Assembly (NCBI GenBank): GCA_017479645.1
Contig: JAFVBZ010000179.1
Location: 1-43,141, forward strand
Reading direction: 5' to 3'
Length of the DNA: 43,141 nucleotides
Origin: Ruminiclostridium sp.
Lineage (GTDB): Bacteria > Bacillota > Clostridia > Oscillospirales > Ruminococcaceae
Shown here: positions 15,566 to 32,191 of the stretch, in pieces
Position numbering within the stretch: the first letter of the stretch is position 1
Layout: every line of letters begins with the position of its first letter
Made by a program: the position numbers and the translations under genes
The notes under the pieces: model-generated
Databases searched by the model: none
Seen by the model: only the letters and a program-made list of their open reading frames with translations
What the model was told of the DNA's origin: nothing

Positions 15566-15796
15566 TCAGAAGAAAATAACTAACCGATGTGGCGCACCTG
15601 CCGCAAGAAGAGTGTCGCTACGCATCAGTTTAGGGTGTCCAGCCCCCTTTTTCAAAGGGGGCTGGCGGGGGATTGGGGGGTGTCTCCCCTTTAGAGGGGA
15701 GGTGTCACCGTCAGGTGACAGAGGGGCTGACCGACAGACTCAGCGCCCCCTCTCTGAAATCTCTCAAAATCTCTCAAATCTCTCAAATCTCTCTCA
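15566..15796 (-). repeat. Dispersed repeat family 1, copy 4
   Basis: Minus-strand copy beginning at the stop codon of the patatin gene (TGAGAG, from 15796). It contains a long run of GAGAGATTTGAGAG-type units at about 15760-15800 and the CCCCTCTGTCACCTGACGGTGAC hairpin seen also in copy 1. It then has CAGCCCCC / GGGGGCTG arms and an ACTGATGCGTAGCGACACTC segment shared with copy 5. The last codons of the patatin gene are themselves composed of the repeat-like tract. Confidence 0.7.
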
Positions 15797-16648
15797 ATCT
15801 TCTCTCAAAAACTCTCGGATTCTCTCCAGATTTCTGACGGCGTAGTCGTGACCTTCTTTCTCATACGGGAGGAGGATCTTCGGGTCATTCTCAAGACGGC
15901 TGATGCCGTAATCGCGCTCCGGAGCAAGAACAAGTGCCTTGCCCTCGCTTTCAAGCCGGGAAAGTTCCTCCGTTTCGCGGTTGTACATCAGATGCCGGTT
16001 CCGTATGGCTTCCGCAAGTTTTGGGTACTTCGGGTATGTTACCTTTATAAGATTCGCAAGCTTTTCCGGAGACTTCTTATATCCGCGCGGGCGGGTGAGT
16101 ACCACGATAACTTTGTCAAATCCGCTGTCAAGTGCATATTTAAAAGGTATGGAATCAGTGATCCCGCCGTCCATATAGTACATTCCGTTGATCTTTATCG
16201 GCTGGAACAGAAGGGGAAGTGCGCAGGAAGCGCGGAGTACCGTCCATTTCTTATCCGCTGCAAGTACGCGCATATACTCGGTCTCGCCGGTCTCTATGTT
16301 TGTAACAGCGCCAAAGCCGTTTTCGCCGGAACGCTTGTATTCCTCAAAATCGTAGGGGAGAAGCTTCGACGGTATCTCGCCAAATACAAAATCAAGTCCG
16401 TAGTAGGAGCGGTTTCCCTTTTTAAACATGTTCGATGCGCCCATATAGCGCTTGTCGCTCATATACATTTCGGTGATCTTGTGATTTCTGCCGATCTGTT
16501 TCGACAAATACGAAACTCCGTATGAAATGCCCGCCGACGCTCCCGCAACGTAGTTTATGTATATCCCGTTTTCAAGAAGTGCATCAAGTATTCCGCAGGT
16601 AAATATCGTCCTGCTCGCTCCGCCTTCAAGTACAAGTCCGGTTTTCAT
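15794..16648 (-). CDS. Patatin-like phospholipase family protein
   Basis: A 284-aa serine lipid acyl hydrolase of the patatin family. The oxyanion-hole loop is GGASR at residues 9-13, the nucleophile elbow GASAG at 36-40 (Ser38), and the catalytic aspartate lies in MDGGITDSIPF (Asp160). Together these form the Ser-Asp dyad. No signal peptide or membrane helix is seen, so it is cytoplasmic. The best substrate guess is a phospholipid or acyl ester. The C-terminal IREFLRED is encoded by repeat-like DNA. A minus-strand promoter overlapping a palindrome lies about 140 bp upstream. Confidence 0.9.
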   Translation of the reverse strand: MKTGLVLEGGASRTIFTCGILDALLENGIYINYVAGASAGISYGVSYLSKQIGRNHKITEMYMSDKRYMGASNMFKKGNRSYYGLDFVFGEIPSKLLPYDFEEYKRSGENGFGAVTNIETGETEYMRVLAADKKWTVLRASCALPLLFQPIKINGMYYMDGGITDSIPFKYALDSGFDKVIVVLTRPRGYKKSPEKLANLIKVTYPKYPKLAEAIRNRHLMYNRETEELSRLESEGKALVLAPERDYGISRLENDPKILLPYEKEGHDYAVRNLERIREFLRED

Positions 16649-16900: not shown

Positions 16901-16929
16901 TTGACAAATCACGAGTTTTTTGATATAAT
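16901..16929 (+). promoter_or_regulatory. Promoter of the sugar-ABC locus
   Basis: TTGACA (16901-16906), a 17-bp spacer and TATAAT (16924-16929): a near-consensus sigma-A promoter about 75 bp upstream of the first ATPase gene. It is the only strong promoter I see before the nine-gene run that ends at 30,617. Confidence 0.8.
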
Positions 16930-17004: not shown

Positions 17005-17706
17005 ATGGAAAATATACTAAAAGCTGAACACGTTTCCCGTGAGTTTCTTATCGGAGACGGGAGTATAGTTCATGCGCTCACCGACATAAATCTTGAAGTC
17101 AACGAGGGGGAGCTTGTCTGCCTCAGAGGAAGATCCGGTTCCGGAAAGACTACTCTCATCAATATCCTCGGCGCCCTTGACCGCCAGAACAGCGGAAATG
17201 TAATATTCTGCGGTGAAGATATAGGAGCATTGAGCGATATCGCAAGAGATAAGCTCCGCAGAGAAAAGCTTGCTTTCGTATTCCAGTCGGTTGCGCTGAT
17301 CTCCACAATGACCGCGCTGGAGAATGTAGAGTTTTCGCTCCGGCTTGCAGGTCACCCAATCTCCGGAAGAACGAAACGCGCAAAGGAATGCCTTACCCGC
17401 GTAGGTCTCGGAAAAAGAATGGATCACCGCCCCGGAGAATTGTCCGGAGGTGAACAGCAGAGAGTCGCTATCGCAAGAGCTGTTGCCAGCAAGCCGAAGA
17501 TCATCTTCGCAGATGAACCTACCGCAGCACTCGACTCGACAACCGGAACAGCTGTGCTCGCGCTTTTCAGAGAGCTTGTGCATGACGACGGTATCACCGT
17601 GGTAATGACCACACACGACGAGGCGATGATGCAGCTTGCCGATGTTGTATATTCTCTCGAGGACGGAGAGATCGTAAACATAACAAGAAATGATATACCA
17701 TTATAA
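17005..17706 (+). CDS. ABC transporter ATPase, LolD/MacB type
   Basis: A 233-aa nucleotide-binding subunit. Walker A is GRSGSGKT (residues 42-49), the Q-loop glutamine is at 94 in VFQSVALI, the signature is LSGGEQQR (from 146), Walker B is IIFADEPTAALD (166-177), and the switch histidine is in TTHDEA. The closest style is the LolD/MacB/FtsE group rather than the MalK/MsmX group normally paired with sugar permeases, since it has no C-terminal TOBE regulatory domain. The ATG at 17005 has no clear ribosome binding site. No FtsX-like permease gene is nearby, so the likely partners are the CUT1 permeases downstream. Confidence 0.9.
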   Translation: MENILKAEHVSREFLIGDGSIVHALTDINLEVNEGELVCLRGRSGSGKTTLINILGALDRQNSGNVIFCGEDIGALSDIARDKLRREKLAFVFQSVALISTMTALENVEFSLRLAGHPISGRTKRAKECLTRVGLGKRMDHRPGELSGGEQQRVAIARAVASKPKIIFADEPTAALDSTTGTAVLALFRELVHDDGITVVMTTHDEAMMQLADVVYSLEDGEIVNITRNDIPL

Positions 17707-17733
17707 TATATATAATATATAAGGGAAATACAA

Positions 17734-18675
17734 ATGCCGAAGACCATACTACTCGCTCCTCCCGAAAATGTCATGGTGAGATGCGACAATCTGGTCAAGA
17801 TCTATAAGAGCAGAGACATTGAGGTAATGGCGCTCCAGGGTCTCGATCTTACAGTCGAGCGCGGTGAGCTTATGGGGATAGTCGGAGCTTCCGGTTCCGG
17901 AAAATCCACACTGCTCAATATGCTCGGCGGTCTTGATAAGCCGTCAGCAGGAAGCCTTTTCGTTGACGGGAAGGATATGCTGAAATTCACCGACAAGGAT
18001 CTCATAGAATATAAGAGACATACGGTAGGATTCGTATGGCAGAACAACGCAAGAAATCTGATACCGTACCTTACCGCGCTGGAGAATGTCGAAATGCCGA
18101 TGATGCTCAGCGGATATGAGGGCAGGCGGAAACGTGCGGAGCATCTGCTGGATATGGTGGGACTCTCGGCAAGAAAGAACTCGATGCTCGGACAGATGTC
18201 CGGCGGTGAGCAGCAGAGAGTGGCAATTGCTATCGCTTTAGCGAACAATCCGAAACTCCTGCTCGCAGACGAACCTACCGGTGCGGTAGATACAAAGACC
18301 GCGGGAAATGTTCTCGATGTTTTCAGAAGACTCAACAAGGAAACAGGCGTAACGGTGATAATCGTAACGCATGATGTGAACCTTGCAAAGTCGATAGACC
18401 GCGTAGTGGCAATACGCGACGGAAAGACCTCAAGTGAGCTTATCCGCAAAAAGCCCGTGATGACCAATATCTCCTTCGAGCAGCTCAGTGAACAGCAGCA
18501 GGCTGAGATCAGAGCGATGCAGGAGGAAAGCGAGGGTCACGATGAGCTGGTACTGCTCGATAAGGCAGGACGGCTACAGATACCAAAAGAATACCTGTCG
18601 GCGCTGGGCATAAACGGCGGTGACAAGGTGCGCGTTGAACTTGACGGTGATAAGATCAGTATATATAAGCAGTAA
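17734..18675 (+). CDS. ABC transporter ATPase fused to a C-terminal AbrB-like domain
   Basis: A 313-aa protein. Residues 1-235 are a second LolD/MacB-type ATPase: Walker A GASGSGKS (51-58), signature MSGGEQQR (from 155), Walker B LLLADEPTGAVD, switch histidine in VTHDVN. A helical linker rich in Glu and Gln (about 245-268) leads to residues 270-313. There, LVLLDKAGRLQIPKEYL followed by LGINGGDKVRVELDGDKI has the look of a SpoVT/AbrB (MazE-type) swapped-hairpin domain. Such domains usually bind DNA as dimers. Here it could dimerise the ATPases or link transport to gene control. AAGGGAAA precedes the start. It follows the first ATPase gene by 27 bp. Confidence 0.85.
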   Translation: MPKTILLAPPENVMVRCDNLVKIYKSRDIEVMALQGLDLTVERGELMGIVGASGSGKSTLLNMLGGLDKPSAGSLFVDGKDMLKFTDKDLIEYKRHTVGFVWQNNARNLIPYLTALENVEMPMMLSGYEGRRKRAEHLLDMVGLSARKNSMLGQMSGGEQQRVAIAIALANNPKLLLADEPTGAVDTKTAGNVLDVFRRLNKETGVTVIIVTHDVNLAKSIDRVVAIRDGKTSSELIRKKPVMTNISFEQLSEQQQAEIRAMQEESEGHDELVLLDKAGRLQIPKEYLSALGINGGDKVRVELDGDKISIYKQ

Positions 18676-18702
18676 AGGCTTATAAAATAAAAGAATAATT
18701 AT

Positions 18703-18777
18703 CCCGTTTCGTTCTTCCCTTGAGCCGGGAAGGCGGGCGGATATTGAGACCGGCAGGAAGCTGTGTCTCAGCCGGTC
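18703..18777 (+). promoter_or_regulatory. Folded leader between the ATPases and the solute-binding protein gene
   Basis: First hairpin: CTTCCC (18714-18719) with GGGAAG (18727-18732), extended by CCCG / CGGG. Then two alternatives compete for the same bases: TGAGAC (18745-18750) with GTCTCA (18765-18770), or GACCGGC (18748-18754) with GCCGGTC (18771-18777). No U-run follows. It may set the relative expression of the very abundant binding protein or act as an attenuator. Confidence 0.45.
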
Positions 18778-18825
18778 CTGTGAGATATTGCAGGTACCGG
18801 ATTTTAAGGAAAGGTGGAGCTAATT

Positions 18826-21786
18826 TTGGGCAAGAAGAAAAGGATTACAGCGATACTTCTTACGGCTGCAATGATTCTGTCAATGCAGAGTTTTCCTGCG
18901 TTTGCGGATAATGAGACAGCTGCCAGCGAAGAGGAGCAGAGCGAGATATCCACTATTACCAACATCATGAACACCGGTAACAGGGATAACGCTTACAGCG
19001 CGTATTACGAGAAATACCGCAATGATAAATTCCCGAAAAAGGAGATCGTGATCGAGGCGAAAAATGCGACTGCGGGCAAGGATTCCGGAGGAGAAGATCC
19101 CTTATATGAGATCACGGACTATTCCGGTCAGGAAGACTGCCTCGTATGGACAAATAACCGCGGTACGCTTACATACGATTTTGAGGTATCCGATCCGGGT
19201 AATTACTGCCTTGAGCTTTATTACTACACCATTTCCGGAGGAAGCACCACAGTCGATGTCGGAATTCTTATCGACGGCGAGTATCCCTTTACAGCCTGCA
19301 ACGACATCACGCTCGACAGGTATTGGGAAGATGCTTCCGATATAAAGAAGGACAGCAAGGACAACGAACTTAAGCCTACACAGATCGAGAAGGATATGTG
19401 GGTCACTTATCCGGTAAAGGATAAGGAGGGTCTGTTCAACGATCCCTACTTCTTCAATCTCTCGGCAGGCAGACATACTATAACGATCGAGGGTATCAGA
19501 ACCAACATCGCGCTCAAGACACTTACTTTCAAGAACTATGACAGCGCTCCCGATTATGTTGAGCCTCCCATGGGCGATATCGAAGCAACTCCGGCATTAA
19601 GCTCCGGCAAGAACGATATCGGTTCCCAGACCATACTCATTCAGGGCGAGAAGGCGCTGTACAAGACAGCTTCCACTCTCTATGCCACATACGACAGAAC
19701 CAACAGCTACACAAGCCCGTCCCACCCCACCAAGCAGAGATACAACACCATAGGCTCCGAAACCTGGAACAAGGCAACACAGGCTATAACATGGAGCTTC
19801 ACGGTTCCTTCGGACGGTTACTACAACCTTTCTTTCAAGGCAAGACAGAACACGATGCGCGGCTTCTACTCCAACAGACGCATATACATCGACGGAGTGG
19901 TTCCGAACAAGGATATGGAGATTGTTTCCTTCCCCTACGATCCTAACTGGTACACCCAGAGGCTCAAGGATCACAACGGCAAGGATATGTACCTCTTCCT
20001 CACAGCCGGTGAGCATACCATAACAATGGAAGTAGTTCCCGGCGACATAGGCGAGATAATGAGAAGACTCGACGATCTCGTTTATACCCTCAACTACTAT
20101 TACAGAAGAATACTTATGATAACCGGTCCGTCTCCCGACGAGTACAACGATTACCTCGTTGACAGACAGATCCCCGAGCTTATCCCCACATTCAGAGATG
20201 CGATAGATACCCTCTACGCTGAAAAGGCAAATATCGAAAAGCTCGGTCAGGGCTCGGAAGCTTCTTCGCTCCAGTCCCTTGCAGTCATCTTAAAGCGCTG
20301 CGTTGACAAAGTTGACGATATCCCGTCAATGGTAGGTACCCTTAAGGATTACATCTCCGCAGTTTCCGCGTGGATGAGAGACTACCGCGATCAGCCCCTT
20401 GAGCTTGACTACATCGAAGTTCTCACGATACACGAAAAGCCCGGCAACCCCAGAGGAAACTTCTTCGAGGAATTCGCGTTCGGCTTCCTGGCATTCATCG
20501 GCTCCTTCTTCGAGGATTACACGATGCTTTCCGATACCAGCGAAAAGTCCCTCAATGTATGGGTATCCCTCGGACGTGACCAGGCAACAGTCGTAAAGGA
20601 TCTCGTTGATAACGACTTCAACCAGAACAATACCGGCGTTCAGGCAAGCATAAACCTCGTACAGGGCGCTATCCTTGAAGCTACACTTGCAGGAAAGGGT
20701 CCGGATATCGCACTCTTCCTCGGCGGTGACTTCCCGATACAGTGCGCGGCAAGAGGACTTCTCGTAAATGTCAAGGAATTCAGAGATTACGAGGACGTTG
20801 TCGCAAGCAGATTCACACCTACTATCGAGACACTCTACACATACAACGGAGGCGTTTACGGACTCCCCGTTTCGCAGACCTTCCCGATGATGTTCTACAG
20901 AACGGATATCCTCGAGGAGCTCAATGTCAAGAAGGTTCCCGAAACATGGGATCAGCTCATCGAGATAATCCCTGTTCTCCAGCGTTCGTACCTCACAGTC
21001 GGACTTCTTCAGCCGACATCAAACCTGTCCAGCTCGATCTTCGAGTCCGGCGACACATTCTCGATGCTCGTTCTCCAGACCGGCAACAATATGTACGTTG
21101 ACGATCTCACAAAGACAACCTTCGATCAGAAGATAATCGTTGACGCGTTCAAGAAGTGGACAGATTTCTACACTATCTACGACTTTGAGCAGACATACGA
21201 CCCCTTCACACGATTCAGAACAGGCGAAATGCCTATCATCATCAACAACTACACGTTCTTCAACCAGCTCACGGTTTCCGCTCCTGAGATCAAGGGTCTC
21301 TGGGATTTCACACACGTTCCCGGAACTCCCGACGACACGGATATAAACGGCAACCCGATAGGTGAGATCCACTACAACGCGAACTCCAGCAGCGCCGGCG
21401 CAGTTATCTTCACAAAGTGCGTAGATAAGAACGCGGCATGGGAATTCATCAAGTGGTTCACCTCCGACGATGTAATGACAAGCTACGGAAGAACGATCGA
21501 AGGTCAGATGGGTCAGATGGGACGTTTCGATACGGCAAACAAGAACGCTCTGCGCGCTCTGCCGTGGTCAAACGCGGAGTATGAAAAGATCTCCGATCAG
21601 ATGAACCAGACCGTAGAAATTCCGATAATCCCCGCGTCCTACGCGACAACCCGTCACGTCAAGAACGCATTCAGAGCAGTCGTAAACGATGCTTGGAATC
21701 CGAGATATTCTCTCTCTTCCTACAACAGAGACATCAACTCCGAGATCAAGAGAAAGAACGAAGACCTTGCGTTCAACAACAAGTAA
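18826..21786 (+). CDS. Giant secreted solute-binding protein with two N-terminal sugar-binding-like modules
   Basis: A 986-aa exported protein. A signal peptide (KKKRITAILLTAAMILSM...AFA) ends at a type I signal peptidase site with no lipobox cysteine. Residues about 60-230 and 255-410 look like two beta-sandwich modules of the CBM6/CBM35 style, each with a Tyr-rich strand pattern and an ending AGRHTITIE / AGEHTITME. A helical segment follows (about 415-520). From about 570 to 985 there is a family 1 extracellular solute-binding protein domain (LNVWVSLGRDQ, GPDIALF, YGLPVSQTFPMMFYR, EFIKWF). The TTG at 18826, with GGTGGAG just upstream, is preferred over a GTG at 18814. It should deliver an oligosaccharide to the permeases. 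Confidence 0.85.
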   Translation: MGKKKRITAILLTAAMILSMQSFPAFADNETAASEEEQSEISTITNIMNTGNRDNAYSAYYEKYRNDKFPKKEIVIEAKNATAGKDSGGEDPLYEITDYSGQEDCLVWTNNRGTLTYDFEVSDPGNYCLELYYYTISGGSTTVDVGILIDGEYPFTACNDITLDRYWEDASDIKKDSKDNELKPTQIEKDMWVTYPVKDKEGLFNDPYFFNLSAGRHTITIEGIRTNIALKTLTFKNYDSAPDYVEPPMGDIEATPALSSGKNDIGSQTILIQGEKALYKTASTLYATYDRTNSYTSPSHPTKQRYNTIGSETWNKATQAITWSFTVPSDGYYNLSFKARQNTMRGFYSNRRIYIDGVVPNKDMEIVSFPYDPNWYTQRLKDHNGKDMYLFLTAGEHTITMEVVPGDIGEIMRRLDDLVYTLNYYYRRILMITGPSPDEYNDYLVDRQIPELIPTFRDAIDTLYAEKANIEKLGQGSEASSLQSLAVILKRCVDKVDDIPSMVGTLKDYISAVSAWMRDYRDQPLELDYIEVLTIHEKPGNPRGNFFEEFAFGFLAFIGSFFEDYTMLSDTSEKSLNVWVSLGRDQATVVKDLVDNDFNQNNTGVQASINLVQGAILEATLAGKGPDIALFLGGDFPIQCAARGLLVNVKEFRDYEDVVASRFTPTIETLYTYNGGVYGLPVSQTFPMMFYRTDILEELNVKKVPETWDQLIEIIPVLQRSYLTVGLLQPTSNLSSSIFESGDTFSMLVLQTGNNMYVDDLTKTTFDQKIIVDAFKKWTDFYTIYDFEQTYDPFTRFRTGEMPIIINNYTFFNQLTVSAPEIKGLWDFTHVPGTPDDTDINGNPIGEIHYNANSSSAGAVIFTKCVDKNAAWEFIKWFTSDDVMTSYGRTIEGQMGQMGRFDTANKNALRALPWSNAEYEKISDQMNQTVEIPIIPASYATTRHVKNAFRAVVNDAWNPRYSLSSYNRDINSEIKRKNEDLAFNNK

Positions 21787-21806
21787 AGAATCGGGAGGAA
21801 TAGGCA

Positions 21807-22742
21807 TTGGCTAAGCAAGATAGATCTCTCTATATCGAGGACAATAAGTTCCGATATACTCTGAGAGAAATGAAAAAGAACATAGGAGTTTACGGACTCA
21901 TTGCTCCGTACTTCGTTCTGTTCCTTATATTTATGATAATCCCTGTTTGTATCTCCCTCCCTATGGGCTTTACAAACTTCAACATGGCGCAGTTCCCGCG
22001 CTGGGTGGGACTGAGCAACTTCTACTCGCTGTTCCTTGAGGACGAGGTTTTCCTGAAAGCTATCGAGAACACTCTCGTCTTTGCGGTAGTTACCGGACCT
22101 ATAAGCTACATACTCTGCTTCATTCTCGCGTGGCTTATAAATGAGCTTCCCGGACCGCTGAAAACCGTGTTCACATTCGTTTTCTACGCTCCGACACTTG
22201 CGGGTAACATCTATACCACATGGCAGCTCATCTTCTCCGGCGATACATACGGAATAATGAACGCTTACCTTATCAACCTCGGCATCTCAAACGGCGCGAT
22301 CCAGTGGCTTACCGATGCGAACTACATCATGGGCGTGCTGATAGTCGTTCAGCTCTGGATGGCACTGGGCGCAGGCTTCCTTGCGATAAGAGCGGGTCTC
22401 CAGGGTATCCCGCGCGACCGTTATGAGGCAGGTGCTATCGAGGGTATCAAGAACAGAGGACAGGAACTTATCTACGTTACTATCCCCGCTATGGGACCCC
22501 AGCTCATGTTCGCGGCGGTAATGCAGATCACATCGTCCTTCACGGCAGGCGATATCGGAAGAATGCTCACAGCCTTCCCGACTACCGACTATGCGGGTCA
22601 TACGATAATGACTCACGCTTTCGACTACGGCTCTATCAGATACGAAATGGGCTACTCCTCGGCAATATGCTTCGTCTTGTTCGCAGTCATGCTGATAGCG
22701 AACTGGGCGATCAAGAAGCTGCTCGGAAAGTATCTCGATTAA
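21807..22742 (+). CDS. Sugar ABC transporter permease, MalF-like (pair 1)
   Basis: A 311-aa inner-membrane permease of the CUT1 carbohydrate family with about six membrane helices. The cytoplasmic coupling loop that contacts the ATPase (EAA loop) is EAGAIEGIKNRGQELIYVTIP. The start codon is TTG at 21807 (product MAKQDRSLYIEDN), with GGGAGGAAT about 10 nt upstream; TTG starts recur in this locus. It follows the binding protein by 20 bp. It should form a heterodimer with the next gene's product. Confidence 0.92.
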   Translation: MAKQDRSLYIEDNKFRYTLREMKKNIGVYGLIAPYFVLFLIFMIIPVCISLPMGFTNFNMAQFPRWVGLSNFYSLFLEDEVFLKAIENTLVFAVVTGPISYILCFILAWLINELPGPLKTVFTFVFYAPTLAGNIYTTWQLIFSGDTYGIMNAYLINLGISNGAIQWLTDANYIMGVLIVVQLWMALGAGFLAIRAGLQGIPRDRYEAGAIEGIKNRGQELIYVTIPAMGPQLMFAAVMQITSSFTAGDIGRMLTAFPTTDYAGHTIMTHAFDYGSIRYEMGYSSAICFVLFAVMLIANWAIKKLLGKYLD

Positions 22743-22764
22743 ACGTGAAAAAAGAAATGATATT

Positions 22765-22794
22765 CCGCTTCTCCGTATGCAGGCGGGGAAGCGG
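22765..22794 (+). promoter_or_regulatory. Intercistronic hairpin between the pair 1 permease genes
   Basis: CCGCTTCTCCG (22765-22775) pairs with CGGGGAAGCGG (22784-22794) around an 8-nt loop, with one G-T wobble. No U-run follows, so it is more likely an mRNA stability or processing element than a terminator. Confidence 0.5.
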
Positions 22795-22823
22795 GCAAAT
22801 AAACAACCGAAAGGACGGTAGTC

Positions 22824-23684
22824 ATGAGGGCTAAAAAATCCAGAAAGAAATATGGCGGAAGCCGCGGCGGCGACATAGCCATTTTTATACTGTTGGTTCT
22901 GCTCGGACTGTTCATGCTGTTCCCGATCTATCTGTCGGCGATACAGTCGATAAAGCCGAGTGAAGAGCTGTTCCTGTTCCCGCCGAAGCTTTACGCTATG
23001 GCACCCACCAATCAGAACTATGTCGATCTTATAAATACGGCATCGAATATGTGGGTACCTTTCAGCCGCTACATCTTCAACTCAGTTTTCGTAGCGATAG
23101 TAGTAACAATTGCACAGCTCATCTTCTCCTCTTCCGCAGCGTATGCACTTGCTAAAGTTCAGTTCCCCGGAAGAAAGACGCTCAACAAGATCATTGAGAT
23201 CACACTTCTGTTCACAAGTACAGTTCTTTACATAATGCAGTACATCGTTATGGCAACAATGGGCATCATAGATACCTACTTTGCTATCACTCTCCCGTAC
23301 ATCGCAACATCAATGGGACTGTTCCTTATGAGACAGTTTATCGGACAGCTGCCGGACGCGCTCATCGAAGCCGCTTACCTCGACGGTGCGGGTCAGGTGA
23401 GAATATGCTGGCAGATAGTAATGCCGAACGTAAAGCCTGCGTGGCTGACGCTGATGATATTCGCGTTCAACGGCGCTTGGCAGATCACAGGTTACTCCTT
23501 CATCTATAACGAAGCATTAAAACCGATCCCGACGGTACTGCAGCAGATAAGCGCTTCGGGTATCGCAAGAGCCGGTGTCGCGGCAGCCGCGACAGTCGTG
23601 CTGATGATACCGCCGATGCTCATATTCCTGCTGTGCCAGAGCTCAGTCGTTGAAACAATGGCGCAGAGCGGTCTTAAAGATTAA
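22824..23684 (+). CDS. Carbohydrate ABC transporter permease, MalG-like (pair 1)
   Basis: A 286-aa CUT1 permease with a short basic N-terminus (MRAKKSRKKYGGSRGG) and about six membrane helices. Its EAA coupling loop reads EAAYLDGAGQVRICWQIVMPN, and the FLMRQFIGQLP stretch just before it is typical of MalG homologues. GAAAGGA lies about 8 nt before the ATG. It pairs with the MalF-like protein encoded upstream. Confidence 0.92.
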   Translation: MRAKKSRKKYGGSRGGDIAIFILLVLLGLFMLFPIYLSAIQSIKPSEELFLFPPKLYAMAPTNQNYVDLINTASNMWVPFSRYIFNSVFVAIVVTIAQLIFSSSAAYALAKVQFPGRKTLNKIIEITLLFTSTVLYIMQYIVMATMGIIDTYFAITLPYIATSMGLFLMRQFIGQLPDALIEAAYLDGAGQVRICWQIVMPNVKPAWLTLMIFAFNGAWQITGYSFIYNEALKPIPTVLQQISASGIARAGVAAAATVVLMIPPMLIFLLCQSSVVETMAQSGLKD

Positions 23685-23703
23685 TCAAGAAAGGATGATT
23701 TTA

Positions 23704-25296
23704 ATGTCGTTTATGAAAAAGCTTGCAGCTTCGGTACTCGCCGCCGCTGTATCGCTTACCGCTCTGGCTGTGACGGCATCTGCCGACGAGCCATATACGG
23801 GTTATAACTACGACTGGTGGGGCGATCCGATTCCGTCGCAGAACGGCTTCGTTGTTGACAGAGTTGTTGACGGAAGCGACCTCGGACTTGACCAGCGCGA
23901 CTACAGCGATCAGACCAGCACGATGCAGGAGCAGATGAAGAACTTCGCCGAGCCTTCGGATATCTTCATAGATCAGAAGACCGGAAAGATCTACATCGTT
24001 GACAGCAAGAACAACAGACTTATCATTACGGACGAGAATTTCTCGCCGGATAATACCAAGATAATAACAGAGCTCAAGTACAGCTCCATATTCCCGGAAA
24101 GCAGGAGCACCGTCAAGAACACAAAGTTCAAGGCTCCCGCGGGCGTATATGTAAGAACGAATACCGACGGCTACACGCTGATATACGTTGCCGATTACGA
24201 CAACAACAGAGTTGTGGCATTCAACGAAGACCTTGAGATAGATATGGAATATGTCCGTCCGTCAAGTGACGTTTACGATGCGAACGTAACATTCAACCCG
24301 AAGAAGGTAATAGTTGACAGCGCATTCAACGTTTATGTCATCGTTCCTTCCATAACACAGGGTGCAGTCCAGTTCTCCGCAGACGGAATGTTCAACGGAT
24401 ATTACGGTGCGAACCGAGTTGAGGCGACAGCGGAAGTTATCGCCCAGCAGTTCTGGAAGCTCATTTACACAAGAGACCAGATCATAGCGATGCGCCGTTC
24501 GGTAGCTATCTCGATAGCAAATATGGATATCGACGATGAAGGCTTCATCTACACCGTTACCGAAAACAAGACAGCCGACACCGATATCTTAAAGAAGCTG
24601 AACCCCGCAGGTACGAACATCTTCATCAACCTCGGATATTCGGACTACACCTACGGTGATTACGCAACAAGATACTACAAGGGCAACAACTACGCTTCCG
24701 CGATAACCGACGTCGATGTCGATACACAGGGCAATATCTACCTGCTGGATTTCGCTACGGGACGTGTGTTCCAGTACACCGACGAGTGCGATCTGCTCTT
24801 CATCTTCGGAACCAAGGGCTTCAAGAACTCCCAGGGTACACAGAAGGGTACATTCAGATCGGTATCCGCAGTCGAGTCCTACAAGGGCAAGGTTTACGTC
24901 GTTGACAACATCAAGAACAGCATCACGGTATTCCGTCAGACGGAATTCGGTTCGATAGTGCAGAACGCGATCTCGCTGTTCAACGAGGGTCTCTACGATG
25001 AGGCAAAGGAGCCGTGGGAGGAAGTCCTCAGAAGAGATGCCAACTACTGGCTCGCTTACATCGGTCTCGGAAATGCTTACCTCAACCAGAATGACTACGC
25101 TACCGCGCTCGATTACTTCTACCGCACATCGAGAGCCGGCTACAACAGAGCATTCAAGAGCTTCCGAATCGAGTTCATAAGAGCAAACTTCACATGGATG
25201 CTCATAATCGTGCTTGTGGTGATACTTGCACTCATAGTATTAAGCTACATCAACAAGGCACGCAAAAAGAAAAAAGCTAAAGGAGGGTCACAATAA
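23704..25296 (+). CDS. Secreted beta-propeller protein with TPRs and a C-terminal membrane anchor
   Basis: A 530-aa protein. An N-terminal signal peptide (MSFMKKLAASVLAAAVSLTA, ending ASA) is followed by a domain rich in NHL-like blades: FAEPSDIFIDQKTGKIYIVD, YVADYDNNRVVAFN, ANMDIDDEGFIYTV and DVDTQGNIYLLDF at about residues 80-420. Two TPR-type helical pairs follow (ALSLFNEGLYDEA-like and WLAYIGLGNAYLNQNDYATA). One membrane helix near residues 495-515 and a lysine-rich cytoplasmic tail finish the protein. The topology puts the propeller outside the cell. The ATG at 23704 is preceded by AAAGGA. It probably scaffolds the transporter or binding protein; the exact role is unknown. Confidence 0.8.
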   Translation: MSFMKKLAASVLAAAVSLTALAVTASADEPYTGYNYDWWGDPIPSQNGFVVDRVVDGSDLGLDQRDYSDQTSTMQEQMKNFAEPSDIFIDQKTGKIYIVDSKNNRLIITDENFSPDNTKIITELKYSSIFPESRSTVKNTKFKAPAGVYVRTNTDGYTLIYVADYDNNRVVAFNEDLEIDMEYVRPSSDVYDANVTFNPKKVIVDSAFNVYVIVPSITQGAVQFSADGMFNGYYGANRVEATAEVIAQQFWKLIYTRDQIIAMRRSVAISIANMDIDDEGFIYTVTENKTADTDILKKLNPAGTNIFINLGYSDYTYGDYATRYYKGNNYASAITDVDVDTQGNIYLLDFATGRVFQYTDECDLLFIFGTKGFKNSQGTQKGTFRSVSAVESYKGKVYVVDNIKNSITVFRQTEFGSIVQNAISLFNEGLYDEAKEPWEEVLRRDANYWLAYIGLGNAYLNQNDYATALDYFYRTSRAGYNRAFKSFRIEFIRANFTWMLIIVLVVILALIVLSYINKARKKKKAKGGSQ

Positions 25297-25934
25297 TGAG
25301 ATTTGATCTTGATCTGCCTGCGTGGAAATGGCCCTTCTACGTTATGAGACACCCCTTTGAAGGTTATGATGACCTTCGCTGGAAAAAAGGCTACAATATG
25401 AAGGTCGCGTGGGTAATAGTTATCGCGTTCTTCATAATAAGCGTCGCGAGCGCACAGCTCACAGGCTTCCTGTTCAACGATACTTATGTAAAGGTATTCA
25501 ACATCGTCCCCTACTTCTCCTCTTCGATAATTCTCTTCCTCACATGGGTAGTGGGAAACTGGTCTCTGTGTACGCTGTTCGACGGAGAAGGTACAATGAA
25601 GAACATCTTCTGCGTATCGGCTTATGCGCTTCTCCCTTACCTCTTCTCTGAGGTGATCGTTATAATCGCCAGCAACTTCCTGCTTCGCACAGAGGGCGGA
25701 TTTATAACATTCTTCAGATATCTCGGCATCGTCTGGTCGGTGGTGCTTATGATATCCGCAATGAAAACAGTTCATCAGTATTCGATACCAAAGACGCTCG
25801 TGGCAATGCTGTTCACGATTGTCGCAATGGTCATCATACTCTTCCTTGCGGTACTGCTGCTCACACTGTTCCAGCAGGTATTCGTATTCGGATATTCGGT
25901 TTATACCGAGCTGATGTACCGATTCAGTATTTAG
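25296..25934 (+). CDS. Yip1-family membrane protein
   Basis: A 212-aa polytopic protein with about five membrane helices. A short amphipathic N-terminus (FYVMRHPFEGYDDLRWKK) is typical of bacterial Yip1-domain proteins, which carry the P-F-x-x-F/Y-x-x-L-R/K pattern before the first helix. Further on, GNWSLCTLFDGEGTMKNIF and SAYALLPYL match the family style. Its ATG overlaps the stop of the previous gene by one base, behind an AGGAGGG, so the two are tightly coupled. Bacterial Yip1 proteins have no settled function. It may assist assembly of the transport complex. Confidence 0.75.
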   Translation: MRFDLDLPAWKWPFYVMRHPFEGYDDLRWKKGYNMKVAWVIVIAFFIISVASAQLTGFLFNDTYVKVFNIVPYFSSSIILFLTWVVGNWSLCTLFDGEGTMKNIFCVSAYALLPYLFSEVIVIIASNFLLRTEGGFITFFRYLGIVWSVVLMISAMKTVHQYSIPKTLVAMLFTIVAMVIILFLAVLLLTLFQQVFVFGYSVYTELMYRFSI

Positions 25935-25984
25935 CGGACAAAACACTCTGATACGATACGATTGACCAATATGGAGGTTATAAA

Positions 25985-28330
25985 ATGCAGAATATAAGGA
26001 AAAGGCTGCTGACTGCCTGCCTTGCCGCGGTGATCGCGGTCTCAGCGGCGTCAATGCCCGTCTGGTCCGATAACGAGGACACGGCGGATATAGCCGATGC
26101 TTCCGAGGAAGCTGCGGCTGAGCAGGACGTCGGAGAAGAGGAGACGGGTACGTTCGTTACCGAGGAAGAGGCTATGGCTGATATGAAAGTCTATGCCGAA
26201 AACTCGAAGCTCGCGCTTTATGTAAACGAAAAGACCGCCGTCTTCATGATCGAGGACAAGGGCAGCGGTCACAAGTGGTGGTCGAGCTACTACAACTCCG
26301 ACCCCTCTAACAAGACCAAGATCAGCAAGCGCAACACCACTCTCTCGATAGACGTTGTCGGGACCGAGAGCAAGACCGTTGAGTCTTCCGTAAGAGCTTA
26401 CGATACAAACGTAGGAAAGAAGTGCGAGAAGATCGAAAACGGCGTGCGCTTCACGTTCACCTACAACAAGTACAGCATTGATATCCCGCTGGAGATCGTG
26501 ATAAATGCTGACGGCACATTCTCCGCAACAGTTCCTTCGGCACTTATCGCCGAGAACAGACCGGAGACCGATCCCGAGACAAAGGAGACCGGATATCAGC
26601 TCCTCAATGTGCATGTGCTGGAGAACTTCGGCGCTGCGGGCTATGACGAAGAGGGAATGATGATCGTTCCCGACGGTTCCGGCGCAGTCATCAACTACAA
26701 CAACGGCACCGCTTACGGTGACAACAACACCTTTGAATCAAAGGTTTACGGCGAGGACCTCGCAGTCGGAAAGCTGTATGCCGGCGATATAATCGAGAAG
26801 GTAACGATGCCGGTAATGGCAAACATCAACAAGACCGCCGGAGCGGGACTTGTGATGATAGCGACGGACGGCGACGCGTATGCGATAGAGCATGCGATGG
26901 TTACCGGACAGAACGTTACCGATCTGAATGCCTGCTGGTTCGAGTTCACGCTCAGAACGAGAGACAACTACTTCATGGGCAACAACAACACAGCCCTCAC
27001 GGTATATGAGGCAGAAGGCATCAAGGCGGGCAATCTTACCACAACATACTACCCGATCTACGGCGACGATATCTCTTACGCAGACGTTGCGAACATTTAC
27101 AGAGACTACCTCATCAACAAGATCGGCGTTCAGAAGAAAACAGTTTCTGACAGCGCTCCTTTCTATCTCACACTTTACGGCGGCACGGTAAAGACACAGT
27201 CGATACTCGGTTTCCCCGCAAAGGTCCAGACCTCGGCAACAACTTACAGCGAGGCTCTTGAGATAATAAAGAAGCTTGAGAACAACGGTGTTACCAACAT
27301 CAAGATCATTTACGAGGACTTCAATGAAGCCGGCATCGTCGGAAAGATAGCTGCAAGCTTTGAGTATTCGTCAAAGCTCGGCGGCAAGGGCGCTTACAAC
27401 GACTTCAAGAACTACGTCACATCGAAGGGCTACGATCTGTATCCGAGCTGCGATATCATGGAGTTCTATGAGTCCGGAAACGGCTACTCCTTCACACTCA
27501 ACTCCTCGAAGCAGATCACAAAGGCGTATGCGACTCAGACTCCCTTTGAGCTTGCATTCGGTCTCCCGCACCTCACAAAGAGCAGCTGGACGATCCTCTC
27601 ACCTTACTACTTCACGGATATCTTCACCAAGCTTTCCAACAGCTTCCGTCAGGAAGGCGCTTCCGGCATCTCGCTCAACCAGGCTTCCAACACCCTGTAC
27701 AGCGACTTCAGCCGTGAGAACAAGGACGGCAGGGCTTACATCGTAAGAGAAGATACTATCGGTATCCTCACCGAAGGCTATCAGAAGCTTAAAGACAGCG
27801 GACTCTCGATAATGACCGAGAACGCTAACCAGTATGTACTGCCTTATGCGGATCAGATCAAGGACGTTCCGCTCTACTCCTCGAACTATGATATTTTCGA
27901 CTACGATATCCCGTTCGCACAGATGGTTCTCCACGGACTCGTTCCGTACACCACAAAAGCGATCAACAAGAGCGCTGATGCGGAAGAGCTGAGAATGCTC
28001 GCACTTGTTACCGGTACTCCGATACATTACGAGATGATGTACACCAACCCGAACAAGTTCGCGGACAGTGAGTATGATTACCTCTACTACACCAACTACA
28101 CCGGCTGGATGGAAAGAGCGGTAAGCGAATACAAGCTCTTCGACGAGATCGTAAAGTCGGTTTCCGACGCAAAGATCACAAAGTATGAGAGGCTGGACGA
28201 CGGTTCGGTACAGTCCACATTCGATAACGGCAGCGTTATCCGTGTAAACACCAAGACGGGTGAGATCGTCTTCAACAATAAGTCCGTCAATATGAAGGAT
28301 TACGGATTGGGGGTCGCAAGTTATGAGTGA
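25985..28330 (+). CDS. Large secreted protein, DUF5696-like
   Basis: A 781-aa exported protein. The signal peptide (KRLLTACLAAVIAVSAAS) is followed by an acidic stretch at about 28-60. A beta-rich region then includes IVPDGSGAVINYNNG (about 225-239), which I associate with the DUF5696 family. After about residue 390 an alpha/beta, barrel-like half begins (FYLTLYGGT, NNGVTNIKIIYEDF, YPSCDIMEFYE, YYTNYTGWMERA). This could be a carbohydrate-active fold, but no catalytic pair can be named. There is no lipobox or C-terminal anchor. The gene has GGAGG upstream and overlaps the next gene by 8 bp. Confidence 0.75.
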   Translation: MQNIRKRLLTACLAAVIAVSAASMPVWSDNEDTADIADASEEAAAEQDVGEEETGTFVTEEEAMADMKVYAENSKLALYVNEKTAVFMIEDKGSGHKWWSSYYNSDPSNKTKISKRNTTLSIDVVGTESKTVESSVRAYDTNVGKKCEKIENGVRFTFTYNKYSIDIPLEIVINADGTFSATVPSALIAENRPETDPETKETGYQLLNVHVLENFGAAGYDEEGMMIVPDGSGAVINYNNGTAYGDNNTFESKVYGEDLAVGKLYAGDIIEKVTMPVMANINKTAGAGLVMIATDGDAYAIEHAMVTGQNVTDLNACWFEFTLRTRDNYFMGNNNTALTVYEAEGIKAGNLTTTYYPIYGDDISYADVANIYRDYLINKIGVQKKTVSDSAPFYLTLYGGTVKTQSILGFPAKVQTSATTYSEALEIIKKLENNGVTNIKIIYEDFNEAGIVGKIAASFEYSSKLGGKGAYNDFKNYVTSKGYDLYPSCDIMEFYESGNGYSFTLNSSKQITKAYATQTPFELAFGLPHLTKSSWTILSPYYFTDIFTKLSNSFRQEGASGISLNQASNTLYSDFSRENKDGRAYIVREDTIGILTEGYQKLKDSGLSIMTENANQYVLPYADQIKDVPLYSSNYDIFDYDIPFAQMVLHGLVPYTTKAINKSADAEELRMLALVTGTPIHYEMMYTNPNKFADSEYDYLYYTNYTGWMERAVSEYKLFDEIVKSVSDAKITKYERLDDGSVQSTFDNGSVIRVNTKTGEIVFNNKSVNMKDYGLGVASYE

Positions 28331-29498
28331 GTTTGAAAACGAAAATATGAATGAGCTCGAAAACGCTGCGGAAACTGCCTCCGAGACAGTTGAAGAGATC
28401 ACTGAGACCGTCTCCGAAGCTGCTGAGGAAGCAGCAGAGGAGATAGCCGAAGAAGCTCCCGTAAGAAAAGCTGCGGTACACATGACTGCTTCGGCAGCCG
28501 CTCTCAACGCAGAGGGCGAGATCGATATCCGCAGAAGAAAGCCCAGAGAAGTCAAGCAGATAAAGCAGTCCAAGATCTCCTACGAGCGCAAGAAGGGACT
28601 CTACGGCTACGGATTCGTGGCACTCTGGATAGTCGGCGTTCTGTATATGTTCATCGTCCCGATGTGCCAGTCCTTATGGTACGCGATGTGCAAGACCGAG
28701 CTGGTAAACGATGCAGCAAGACAGGCTGAACTGGGAATGAGCGGTCCCGGGATCTACACCACATGGAACGATTTCGAGAATATCCGCTGGGCATTCACAG
28801 TAAACCCCGATTACCCGAAGAACCTTGCGGCTTCCCTCGGAGAGACAGCTTACACAGTACCGCTGGTACTCGTATTCTCCCTCTTCGTTGCTCTTCTGCT
28901 CAATGACAAGTTCAAGGGAAGAACTCTTGCGCGAGCGATATTCTTCCTGCCGGTACTGATAGCGACCGGTCCTGTGCTCGGAGTTATCAACGGTGATATG
29001 CTCTCGCAGGGTATATCGGACGCGTCACAGTTCAGTGCGCTGTTCAAAACGGACTTCGTTCAGGACTTCCTGCAGTTCATGGGTCTGAACAACATAAGCC
29101 AGCAGCTCGCCGACACCGTTTCGGAAGTCACGAGCTCGATACTGAACCTTATATGGGATTCCGGCATCCAGATACTGATATTCATTTCCGCACTCCAGAC
29201 GATACCTGTTTCCGCGAAGGAAGCGGCATCAATGGAAGGCGCTACGGGCTGGGAATTCTTCTGGAAGATAACATTCCCGACGATCTCCCCGATGATCTTC
29301 GCAAACCTCATCTATACAACGATCGACGCGTTCGTTAAGTCCGACAACCCCGTAATGCAGCAGGTAATGACCTATATCAAGCAGTGGGAATATGACCACG
29401 CATCTGCGATGGCTTGGGTTTACTTCGCAATAGTCGGAGTTATCCTCGCGATCATTTCCGCAATAGTTTCCAGATTCATATTCTATCAGGTAGATTAA
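28323..29498 (+). CDS. Sugar ABC transporter permease, MalF-like (pair 2), with acidic N-terminal tail
   Basis: A 391-aa CUT1 permease. Residues 1-50 are highly acidic and alanine-rich (repeats of ETV/EE with SEAAEEAAEEIAEE), probably a long charged helix; residues 75-95 turn basic (RRRKPREVK). About six membrane helices follow, with the EAA coupling loop EAASMEGATGWEFFWKITFPT. It starts 8 bp inside the DUF5696-like gene (ATGAGTGA overlap), implying coupled translation. The tail is absent from the pair 1 homologue. Confidence 0.92.
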   Translation: MSEFENENMNELENAAETASETVEEITETVSEAAEEAAEEIAEEAPVRKAAVHMTASAAALNAEGEIDIRRRKPREVKQIKQSKISYERKKGLYGYGFVALWIVGVLYMFIVPMCQSLWYAMCKTELVNDAARQAELGMSGPGIYTTWNDFENIRWAFTVNPDYPKNLAASLGETAYTVPLVLVFSLFVALLLNDKFKGRTLARAIFFLPVLIATGPVLGVINGDMLSQGISDASQFSALFKTDFVQDFLQFMGLNNISQQLADTVSEVTSSILNLIWDSGIQILIFISALQTIPVSAKEAASMEGATGWEFFWKITFPTISPMIFANLIYTTIDAFVKSDNPVMQQVMTYIKQWEYDHASAMAWVYFAIVGVILAIISAIVSRFIFYQVD

Positions 29499-29510
29499 GG
29501 AGGTGCTTCA

Positions 29511-30617
29511 ATGGACAACGAAAATATTCAGAATGTACCGGGAGCCGCTTCCGCTGCAAAGAAATCAAAGAGACAGCTCAAGAAGGAAGAGAAGAAGCGC
29601 TTAAGCAAATTTCACGTTTCGAGCTGGGAGATCATAACGCACTATTTCAAGTACTCAGATGCCGAAAAGAAGCATTACCGCTATATTCTCGGCAGACGTA
29701 CCGGTGAAAAGGTATGGCCGGTCTTCCGCTTCCTTATCCTCTTCGGACTTGCGTTCGTCGTAGTTTACCCGATAATCTACATGATATCCTGTGCGATAAG
29801 ACCGCAGGTCGAAATGTCCGACCCGTCTATCATGTGGATACCCAAGACGCTGACCCTCAGCAACCTTGAGGAAACATGGCTCGCTATCGACTATCCGAAA
29901 CTTGTATGGGATACGGTGACGGTCAACGTAGTCTGCTCGATCATTCAGGTCCTTACCTGCTCGATAGCCGGCTACGGATTTGCAAGATTCAAGTTCAAGG
30001 GCAAGGGACTGATGTTCGCGATAGTTATTCTCCAGATCATCGTTCCTACGCAGGTTATCCTGATACCGCAGTATATGCAGTTCAGATACTTCAACCCCCT
30101 CGGCATCGTCGGTCTCTTCAACAACGGCGCGGCGATAAACCTCGCGGACTCCCCGTGGGCGCTCTACTTACAGGCATTCTTCTGCAACGGTATCCGTGCG
30201 GGTCTGTTCATCTTCCTTTTCAGACAGTTCTTCAGAGGACTTCCGAAGGAACTCGAAGATGCAGCGTATCTTGACGGCTGCGGACCGTTCGAGACATTCG
30301 TAAGAATCATGGTTCCGAACGCTTCCAACTCCTTCCTCACGGTTTTCATCTTCTCCGTAGTATGGTACTGGAACGACTCCTATGTATCGGGTATGTTCTT
30401 CACAAAGTCCAACACGGTAGCGCTTATGGTAAGCAACCTCTATCAGACGATCTCCGCCTACTACAGCCCGAACGGAACCCCGACCGGCGTGCCGTCCGAC
30501 TGGCTCGTTTGGATTGAGTCCGGATGCCTTCTCTCGATACTTCCTATCCTCGTCATGTACATCTTCCTCCAGAAGAACTTCGTCGAGGGTATCGAAAGAT
30601 CCGGTATCGTAGGATAA
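29511..30617 (+). CDS. Carbohydrate ABC transporter permease, MalG-like (pair 2), with basic N-terminal tail
   Basis: A 368-aa CUT1 permease. Its first 40 residues are unusually basic (KKSKRQLKKEEKKRLSK), in contrast to the acidic tail of its partner. The membrane part carries the EAA coupling loop EDAAYLDGCGPFETFVRIMVP and the preceding FLFRQFFRGLP. AAGGAGGTG lies just upstream of the ATG. It is the last gene of the locus; four small hairpins and a terminator follow. Confidence 0.92.
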   Translation: MDNENIQNVPGAASAAKKSKRQLKKEEKKRLSKFHVSSWEIITHYFKYSDAEKKHYRYILGRRTGEKVWPVFRFLILFGLAFVVVYPIIYMISCAIRPQVEMSDPSIMWIPKTLTLSNLEETWLAIDYPKLVWDTVTVNVVCSIIQVLTCSIAGYGFARFKFKGKGLMFAIVILQIIVPTQVILIPQYMQFRYFNPLGIVGLFNNGAAINLADSPWALYLQAFFCNGIRAGLFIFLFRQFFRGLPKELEDAAYLDGCGPFETFVRIMVPNASNSFLTVFIFSVVWYWNDSYVSGMFFTKSNTVALMVSNLYQTISAYYSPNGTPTGVPSDWLVWIESGCLLSILPILVMYIFLQKNFVEGIERSGIVG

Positions 30618-30734: not shown

Positions 30735-30765
30735 AAAAATGCCCCGCGTAAGCGGGGTGTTTTTA
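30735..30765. terminator. Bidirectional terminator between permease and XRE genes
   Basis: CCCCGC (30742-30747), loop GTAA, GCGGGG (30752-30757), with A-run before and T-run after. The stop codon of the convergent XRE gene is inside the T-run. Confidence 0.9.
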
Positions 30766-31149: not shown

Positions 31150-31178
31150 TTGACAAGACGTTTAAAAGGTTGTATAAT
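31150..31178 (+). promoter_or_regulatory. Promoter of the FN3-domain protein gene
   Basis: TTGACA (31150-31155), a 17-bp spacer and TATAAT (31173-31178), about 60 bp before the start codon. Confidence 0.75.
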
Positions 31179-31237: not shown

Positions 31238-32191
31238 ATGAAATTAAAAAAGTTTGTTGCAGGTTTGACAGTAGCAGTAATGTGTTCGACCGGACTTATG
31301 ATAACACATTCTTCGGCTGAAGGAGGGATTTTTCCGGCTATTGGCGGGAATGAACAATTCAGACAAATGAAGATGGACGTCATTAAGGAAGATATTGTAA
31401 ATAATGGGCAGACGGTAAAAGTATCTGATATTATGGTAAGTAATATTTATGGCGTTGTTTATAGCGCGGAACGATTTTTTAATATAGAGAAAACAGGAAA
31501 AGCAGAGCTGGAGATAAACGGTATTTCACAAAAATTGTCTTTGGGTTTGAAAGTAGGCTATGGCGGCAATGTTTACTACGAGGCAGATGCTATAACAATA
31601 GACGGTAAAGAATATAAGTCATCAGATTTAAAAAAATCAAAAGAAAAAGATTCTCTTTATGGAACATACAATTTGTATAGTTTAGATACTATCAGTGTGA
31701 AGATAAATACAAAAGTTCTGGATTATAAAGATATTATTTCAAATCATTTTTTCTATAATATAGAAATTAAAGACGGTAAAGAACATAAGATAAAACTTAC
31801 ATATAACAATATAGAATACGGTTATTATGAGGTATATGTTGACCACGAAGAAATAAAAGATAAAATAAATAAGAATACAACTATCAAGTTTATTTCCTCA
31901 GCGTCTGCTTCGGAAACGCTCAATAAAACCACCCTCAAGGCTTCCTCAAAAAATGGGAAAGCAACTCTTAAATGGTCAGCGGTTGCAGGCGCGGAAAGGT
32001 ATCAGATATATGTCTCAACAGACGGGGGAAAGACATATTCGAGATATAAGACATATAAATCAACTGTATTGAAATCAACATACACTATGACAAAGGGAAA
32101 AACTTATAAATTCAAAATAAGATCATATAAGACTGTTGACGGTAAAAAAGTTTACAGCAAGTGGTCAAATGTCAAAACAATTAAATACTGA
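31238..32191 (+). CDS. Secreted protein with C-terminal fibronectin type III domain
   Basis: A 317-aa exported protein. The signal peptide MKLKKFVAGLTVAVMCSTGL ends near HSSA-E with no lipobox. Residues about 30-220 form an uncharacterised beta-rich region with many Lys, Tyr and Ile. Residues about 228-317 are FN3-like: GKATLKWSAVAGAERYQIYV and TYKFKIRSYKTVDGKKVYSKW. Such domains are common on secreted clostridial proteins. AGGAGG lies 8 nt before the ATG. Base composition and codon use (AAA, ATA and TTT rich) are clearly more AT-rich than the flanking genes, so it may be a recent arrival. Function unknown. Confidence 0.85.
   Translation: MKLKKFVAGLTVAVMCSTGLMITHSSAEGGIFPAIGGNEQFRQMKMDVIKEDIVNNGQTVKVSDIMVSNIYGVVYSAERFFNIEKTGKAELEINGISQKLSLGLKVGYGGNVYYEADAITIDGKEYKSSDLKKSKEKDSLYGTYNLYSLDTISVKINTKVLDYKDIISNHFFYNIEIKDGKEHKIKLTYNNIEYGYYEVYVDHEEIKDKINKNTTIKFISSASASETLNKTTLKASSKNGKATLKWSAVAGAERYQIYVSTDGGKTYSRYKTYKSTVLKSTYTMTKGKTYKFKIRSYKTVDGKKVYSKWSNVKTIKY

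Follow-up and report, generated by a model that had tools for sequence, protein, structure and literature searches.

A conserved four-permease importer cassette of Clostridia and the probable capture of FtsX-type pump ATPase genes at its head

Results

Organization of the cluster

The 43,141-nucleotide contig JAFVBZ010000179.1 of Ruminiclostridium sp. (assembly GCA_017479645.1), hereafter the window, carries ten genes in an operon-like arrangement on its forward strand between positions 17005 and 30617. The last eight, from the gene for a solute-binding protein (SBP) to the permease gene P4, form a conserved importer layout that is undescribed, and new as far as the literature was searched. 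The two ATPases encoded at the head of the cluster, A1 and A2, co-occur in other genomes with an FtsX-type permease (FTSX). From comparative sequence evidence we consider it likely that the cluster encodes a glycan importer energised by an MsmX-type ATPase, and that the motor genes of a MacAB/YknWXYZ-like pump have been recruited into it. The genes are as follows.

17005..17706, +, A1: LolD/MacB-type ABC ATPase; its predicted partner is an FtsX-type permease encoded outside the cluster
17734..18675, +, A2: LolD-type ABC ATPase with a C-terminal AbrB/MazE-like domain (residues 279-312)
18814..21786, +, SBP: secreted binding protein of 990 residues, with two beta-sandwich modules, a helical segment and a CUT1-type solute-binding domain
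21807..22742, +, P1: CUT1-type permease (UgpA/MalF-like)
22824..23684, +, P2: CUT1-type permease (UgpE/MalG-like)
23704..25296, +, PROP: NHL propeller, TPR and a C-terminal hydrophobic helix
25296..25934, +, YIP: Yip1-family membrane protein (a single fusion protein with PROP in other lineages)
25985..28330, +, DUF5696: secreted protein, predicted GH129/GH101-type fold
28323..29498, +, P3: CUT1-type permease, second pair
29511..30617, +, P4: CUT1-type permease, second pair

The first-pass annotation placed these parts correctly, on a single strand with short gaps or overlaps, and counted nine genes where there are ten. Matches in Pfam or NCBIfam back every one of them, the Pfam calls being ABC_tran (twice), SBP_bac_1, BPD_transp_1 (four times), NHL with TPR, Yip1 and DUF5696 (E 4e-144). 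For P1 the Pfam permease score is below the cut-off (18.5 versus 26.4 bits), with a weak UgpA match.

Conservation of the importer cassette

Gene neighbourhoods were compared in a class sample of 293 genomes, a family sample of 197 genomes and a scan of named genomes (80 loci); the three sources overlap, so that some genomes appear in more than one of them, and near relatives are over-represented among the named loci. DUF5696 matches are found in 89 of the 293 class genomes, above the cut-off in 75, and a full-length DUF5696 protein is present in 79 of the 80 class-wide neighbourhoods retrieved. The full order SBP-P1-P2-PROP-(YIP)-DUF5696-P3-P4 is seen in 67 of these 79 loci, and in 65 of the 77 named-record loci and 25 of the 27 family loci with a full-length DUF5696 protein. 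This near-completeness across three sets indicates that the arrangement is not due to chance. Most of the incomplete loci are truncated at contig ends; among the 12 class-wide ones, P2 is displaced in two (L124 and L125), and two have no recognised P4 (L164 and L169), the former of these also being without the upstream genes. The same arrangement of the eight genes recurs in many Clostridia and in some Bacilli. Among the named genomes, Ruminococcus albus AR67 (L247) has the cassette with A1 and A2, R. flavefaciens (L222, L223, L225 and L226) has it without them, and Paenibacillus and Lederbergia (L270, L273, L276 and L280) carry it too. The recurrence of DUF5696 with Yip1 and two CUT1 pairs, for which the first-pass annotation had suggested a neighbourhood survey, is thus borne out. 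In the literature searched, no paper names DUF5696 and nothing relevant was found on the combination of components.

A place for A1 and A2 in every such cassette was considered and discarded: among all loci with enough upstream sequence they are present in 53 (34 named, 17 family, 2 class-wide) and absent in 101 (29 named, 8 family, 64 class-wide), with 11 undecided. Within the class-wide set, no same-strand ATPase gene precedes SBP in 63 of the 66 loci with at least 600 bp of upstream sequence; the exceptions are L132 and L135, with A1 and A2, and L113, with MalK-type genes. The remaining class-wide loci have too little upstream sequence (six) or no SBP (seven). All loci of known kinship in which A1 and A2 head the cassette are within the family of the window. 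Titles of the named ones read Ruminococcus, Ruminiclostridium, Oscillospiraceae, Clostridia and, once, "Bacteroides sp." (L202), an apparently mislabelled metagenome-assembled genome.

Association of A1 and A2 with an FtsX-type permease

Walker and signature motifs are readable in both A1 and A2, and their best NCBIfam matches are to DevA, LolD and MacB, every one below its cut-off. Assignment as LolD proper was rejected, the LolD equivalog scoring 204.8 bits for A1 and 228.2 bits for A2 against a cut-off of 307.75. The A2 tail matches PF04014 with an E-value of 4e-5 and 23.9 bits, slightly below the cut-off of 24.7, and had gone unmentioned in the first-pass annotation; it is kept in cassette and FTSX-adjacent relatives, and its role is perhaps regulatory or dimerising.

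By raw genome counts that ignore kinship, ATPases of the A1A2 type occur in 33 of the 197 family genomes (in 32 of them A2 matches at E ≤ 2.3e-94; G361 has a 65%-identical fragment at a contig end) and FTSX in 36, among them all 33. FTSX was found in none of the 41 family genomes with a near-full-length DUF5696 match and no A1A2; of the nine of these whose neighbourhoods were inspected, eight have the SBP-to-P4 cassette and the ninth (L317) is cut. Counted likewise in the class sample (thresholds E ≤ 1e-65 for A2 and ≤ 1e-40 for FTSX), A2 is present in 38 genomes, FTSX in 39 and both in 38 of 293. A2 lies within 2 kb of FTSX in 26 of the 38; for comparison, 23 of the 38 contain a near-full-length DUF5696.

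In 22 of the 33 family genomes with A1A2, an SBP gene immediately follows A2. DUF5696 was found in 21 of these, the contig of the remaining one, G360, breaking off; FTSX is located downstream of P4 in three (G355, G437 and G335). The other 11 genomes have no full-length DUF5696, and in 10 of them A1 and A2 directly follow an FTSX gene of about 950 codons, itself preceded by a gene for a HlyD/MacA-like protein or fragment; in the eleventh, G299, the contig ends. Both kin permeases scanned contain the FtsX domain PF02687. Outside the family, FTSX is directly upstream of SBP in G086 and G031 (L097/L110). Linkage of FTSX and cassette in more than one layout suggests a joint role.

In the genome of the window, an adaptor-FTSX pair is present at C203:3266-7324 with no ATPase gene alongside, and so does not adjoin A1 and A2. 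The adaptor matches PF16576, and the permease was assigned by 39% identity to the kin permeases. An A2-type gene other than A2 was not found in this genome (E ≤ 1e-65). The sequence evidence thus links A1 and A2, as the putative ATPase pair of a MacAB/YknWXYZ-like transporter, to the adaptor and permease on contig C203. Some class genomes have several FTSX genes and a single A2, so A1 and A2 may serve several FTSX; G031 (L325/L110) has at least three FtsX-type permeases and one A2 match. Directly 3' of the C203 pair lies a FeoA-FeoB fusion gene (L323:7321-9756).

A change of partner might have left traces in the permeases or the ATPases. All four permeases have an EAA-type loop, and these loops are nearly identical in cassettes with A1 and A2 (52-53 rows) and in the closest relatives without them (29, 30, 8 and 25 rows for P1 to P4). 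Comparison of 46 cassette A1 and 48 cassette A2 sequences with 10 and 11 FTSX-adjacent ones gave one group-specific conservative site in A1 and two in A2. In the rows compared, no signature of a partner switch was found in the EAA loops or in the A1 and A2 sequences. The cassette A2 sequences form a single clade (support 97/88; 98% of bootstraps). Likeness of the loops, near-unchanged ATPases and the A2 clade fit a single relocation of A1 and A2 to the head of the cluster, probably once and with an unchanged partner.

An MsmX-type ATPase as the probable energiser

The cluster itself contains no MalK/MsmX-type ATPase. Elsewhere, the genome of the window encodes at least three UgpC/MalK-type ATPases above the NCBIfam cut-off, two on contig C190 (C190:3345 and C190:15602) and one on C224; no binding-protein-dependent (BPD) permease was found on C190. 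For the multitask ATPase, the residues D77, R104, E110 and K154 (MsmX numbering) are given in the consulted part of PMC7658222. All four are present, at the same numbers, in the C190:3345-4403 ATPase; in the second C190 ATPase they are not at those numbers. Both C190 genes lie in what appears to be a galacturonate/pectin catabolism cluster (L326, C190:1-20000; names guessed from sequence).

An MsmX/UgpC-type ATPase (E ≤ 1e-80) is encoded in 51 of 54 genomes tested, 20 of 22 with A1A2 and 31 of 32 without. In L113 (G253), two MalK-type ATPase genes directly precede SBP, in the slot taken by A1 and A2 in the family; their products share 46% and 44% identity with the C190:3345 protein and make this locus a likely natural variant carrying its own energisers. 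G126 has an MsmX-type gene some 3.5 kb ahead of A1, separated from it by further genes. Probably, then, the importer is powered by an ordinary shared MsmX-type ATPase encoded elsewhere. The first-pass annotation had the LolD/MacB-type ATPases stand in for MalK/MsmX, a replacement that is not supported: A1 and A2 track FTSX, and the EAA loops are alike with and without them. It had named an MsmX-type ATPase elsewhere, as the true energiser, as what would speak against its reading; judged from sequence, MsmX-type ATPases are indeed encoded elsewhere in the genome.

The binding protein, the propeller protein and Yip1

The SBP signal region contains no cysteine, and hence no lipobox. In the SBP model (pLDDT 86), two beta-sandwich modules and a helical part accompany the binding domain, which is closest to oligosaccharide-binding proteins, the top match being a beta-1,2-glucooligosaccharide-binding one. 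The first module weakly matches a beta-agarase domain (E 0.005) and the second a domain of a cycloisomaltooligosaccharide glucanotransferase (E 1.4e-5); these matched domains are of the CBM6 and CBM35 kinds, respectively. Permeases with an EAA loop, in pairs, together with a carbohydrate-type SBP mark the system as a putative CUT1 importer.

Length of PROP and presence of YIP are coupled: 127 loci have a short PROP and a YIP, 41 a long PROP without YIP, and there is one exception (L115). A Yip1 domain was found at the end of all ten long PROPs scanned. With a long PROP replacing a separate YIP and ending in Yip1, propeller-TPR and Yip1 likely form one unit. YIP of the importer cassette is also found in genomes without FTSX.

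The DUF5696 protein

A broad DUF5696 profile matches DagB (5opq, 8rzg/8rzk) with an E-value of 2e-17 and NagBb with 8e-8 among structures in the Protein Data Bank; it was preferred to a family-heavy alignment, which put designed repeat-protein chains on top. The AlphaFold2 model (pLDDT 87) consists of a beta-sandwich and a TIM-barrel of the GH129/GH167 type. Foldseek places NagBb and DagB first (E 1.1e-32 to 9.7e-27; TM-score by target length 0.66-0.74), followed by GH101. DUF5696 is therefore predicted to have a GH129/GH101-type glycosidase fold, which qualifies the earlier statement that the cluster contains no ordinary glycosidase. The GH129-like DagB was later assigned its own family, GH167.

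The fold is common to the DUF5696 model, GH129 (NagBb), DagB and GH101; DUF5696 differs in its identity of 10-15% to these proteins, in its unmapped catalytic acids and in the replacement of a glutamate. This residue is kept in 27 of 30 DUF5696 family members and is Val, Ala or Met in the window protein and its two family relatives. In the consulted part of PMC5698469, DagB is described as an alpha-1,3-(3,6-anhydro)-D-galactosidase, proposed by its authors as a new family, and the conserved catalytic aspartate as D435 in NagBb and D486 in DagB.

Flanking genes and substrate

Among 85 same-strand flanking proteins, SBPs are commonest (19), then GH10, GH26, GH5 and CBM35 (four each), then GH9, GH130 and GH3 (two each) among others. 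L233 and L253 encode a GH26 protein (Pfam assignment) between P4 and an adaptor-FTSX pair, and similar proteins were detected by BLAST in L257, L262, L263, L264, L298 and L311; in L302 the pair follows P4 with no GH26 between. The substrate is likely a plant-wall hemicellulose, perhaps beta-mannan. Among the other listed open reading frames of the window, part of which were run against Pfam, no glycosidase or sugar kinase was recognised. The earlier reading of the cluster as a sugar-uptake system, with its modular SBP and doubled CUT1-like permease pairs, fits the likeness of the SBP domain to oligosaccharide-binding proteins, the weak matches of the N-terminal modules to domains of carbohydrate-active enzymes and the plant-wall glycosidases encoded beside the cassette in relatives.

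Boundaries and gene calls

The elements on either side of the cluster are as follows.

16901..16929, +, sigma-A-like promoter site, TTGACA-17-TATAAT with extended TG; 12/12, consensus match only
30742..30757, strand unassigned (listed as - in the scan), GC stem then T-rich tail 3' of P4, possible terminator

The promoter scan gave 25 promoter-like sites against 17.7 expected, and what stands out is the perfect match only. Another perfect 12/12 site, at 31150-31178, lies ahead of the gene for a secreted-looking protein without Pfam match (31238-32191). Intergenic distances within the cluster are, in gene order, 27, 138, 20, 81, about 19, -1, 50, -8 and 12 bases, the widest being that between A2 and SBP. 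The distance of about 19 bases between P2 and PROP presumes a PROP start at 23704; the PROP reading frame opens at TTG 23650, the likelier start being ATG 23704 (or 23695). The fraction of C at third codon positions is 0.26 to 0.42 in the cluster genes. Upstream, on the opposite strand, there is a patatin-like gene. Two reading frames, 15438-15845 and 34092-34649, are probably not genes; the peptide SLRISLGCPAPFFKGGWRG, common to both, indicates a repeated intergenic element.

Discussion

Proposed mechanism and known systems

In the proposed mechanism, the secreted multi-module SBP and the membrane-anchored propeller-TPR-Yip1 unit would keep the glycan close to the two pairs of permeases, the GH129-fold DUF5696 protein would trim or grip it, and an MsmX-type ATPase made elsewhere would power uptake. 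A1 and A2 would have moved, probably once, in this family to the head of the importer cluster, where their position would couple expression of the pump motor to glycan uptake.

The MsmX-dependent CUT1 importers of Bacillus (AraNPQ, MdxEFG), as described in the consulted part of PMC7658222, likewise have an SBP and two CUT1 permeases without a local ATPase, and an MsmX-like orphan ATPase elsewhere in the genome. The cassette differs from them in its two permease pairs, its 990-residue multi-module SBP without lipobox, its propeller-TPR, Yip1 and DUF5696 proteins and, in the family, A1 and A2 at its head. Bacillus YknWXYZ consists of a Yip1 protein, an adaptor, a LolD-type ATPase and an FtsX permease (PMC4887032, consulted in part). 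The HlyD-like adaptor, FtsX-type permease and LolD-type ATPases resemble YknWXYZ and MacAB; here, in contrast, the ATPases are two different proteins, of which A2 has an AbrB-like tail, and in the genome of the window their genes are split from that of the permease. Unlike in YknWXYZ, Yip1 is part of an importer cassette and occurs also without FTSX.

Alternative explanations

Several observations weigh against an MsmX-energised importer with captured pump genes. Wherever a family genome has both, A2 stands next before SBP (22 of 22 genomes, 13 genera), and in 19 of the 22 FTSX is remote from them, either on a different contig or separated by hundreds of kb; such stable linkage would be expected if A1 and A2 served the importer. 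FTSX occurs without an A1A2-type match in the family genomes G321, G383 and G468 and without A2 in the class genome G199, and kinship is ignored in the co-occurrence counts. An MsmX-type ATPase was missed in G360, G340 and G482, and, being near universal, its presence does not discriminate between readings. The A1 tree is indecisive (two changes, one change in 7% of bootstraps, long branches). The DUF5696 profile alignments stop short of the D435/D486 region and of the acid/base, leaving the catalytic acids unmapped. That A1 and A2 replaced MalK/MsmX and, as a heterodimer, power both P1P2 and P3P4 would account for the linkage to SBP, and agrees with two ATPases and two permease pairs in a single cluster and with the motifs in both ATPases. 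We consider it highly improbable, as FTSX is present in all A1A2 family genomes and in none of the 41 DUF5696 genomes without A1A2, the EAA loops are alike, A1 and A2 are almost unchanged relative to FTSX-adjacent kin, and class-wide cassettes mostly do without them, a MalK-type pair filling the slot in L113. A multitask pair that crosses transporter classes and energises the CUT1 permeases as well as the FtsX-type pump would explain the co-occurrence with FTSX and also the position before SBP; it too is very improbable, with no adaptation visible on the permease or ATPase side, and according to PMC7658222 such sharing of ATPases has been reported only among CUT1 importers.

The position of A1 and A2 could be a neutral accident, one rearrangement under a common promoter inherited without functional link. 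The single A2 clade is consistent with this, as are 9 of the 38 class-sample A2 genomes, where A2 has no FTSX within 2 kb and, judging from its place on the contig, no DUF5696 match beside it. Retention of the arrangement in 22 of 22 genomes from 13 genera, and FTSX beside the cassette in separate layouts, after P4 (L233, L253, L302 and others) or before SBP (L097/L110), make such an accident improbable. Handling of the cell's own envelope glycan, in recycling or remodelling, instead of dietary polysaccharide would suit the lack of a recognised glycosidase or sugar kinase among the window's other listed reading frames (Pfam on part of them) and a DUF5696 protein that may not be catalytic; it is unlikely in view of the plant-wall glycosidases (GH10, GH26, GH5, GH9, GH130, GH3) that flank some relatives. 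Finally, and doubtfully, A1 and A2 might drive the FtsX-type pump within a single envelope machine, a Yip1/propeller-TPR scaffold, akin to the assembly factor YknW, docking the pump to the CUT1 permeases and possibly letting the ATPases power both; if true, importer and MacB-type transporter would share one motor.

Implications

The co-occurrence of A1 and A2 with FTSX corrects the easy assumption that one energiser serves all neighbours in a gene cluster, and prompts one to ask why a sugar importer retains beside it the motor genes of an FtsX-type pump. The four-permease cassette, with its propeller-TPR-Yip1 proteins and a protein of predicted GH129-type fold, is widespread in Clostridia, including Ruminococcus, and defining it would add a type of glycan uptake for gut and rumen bacteria.

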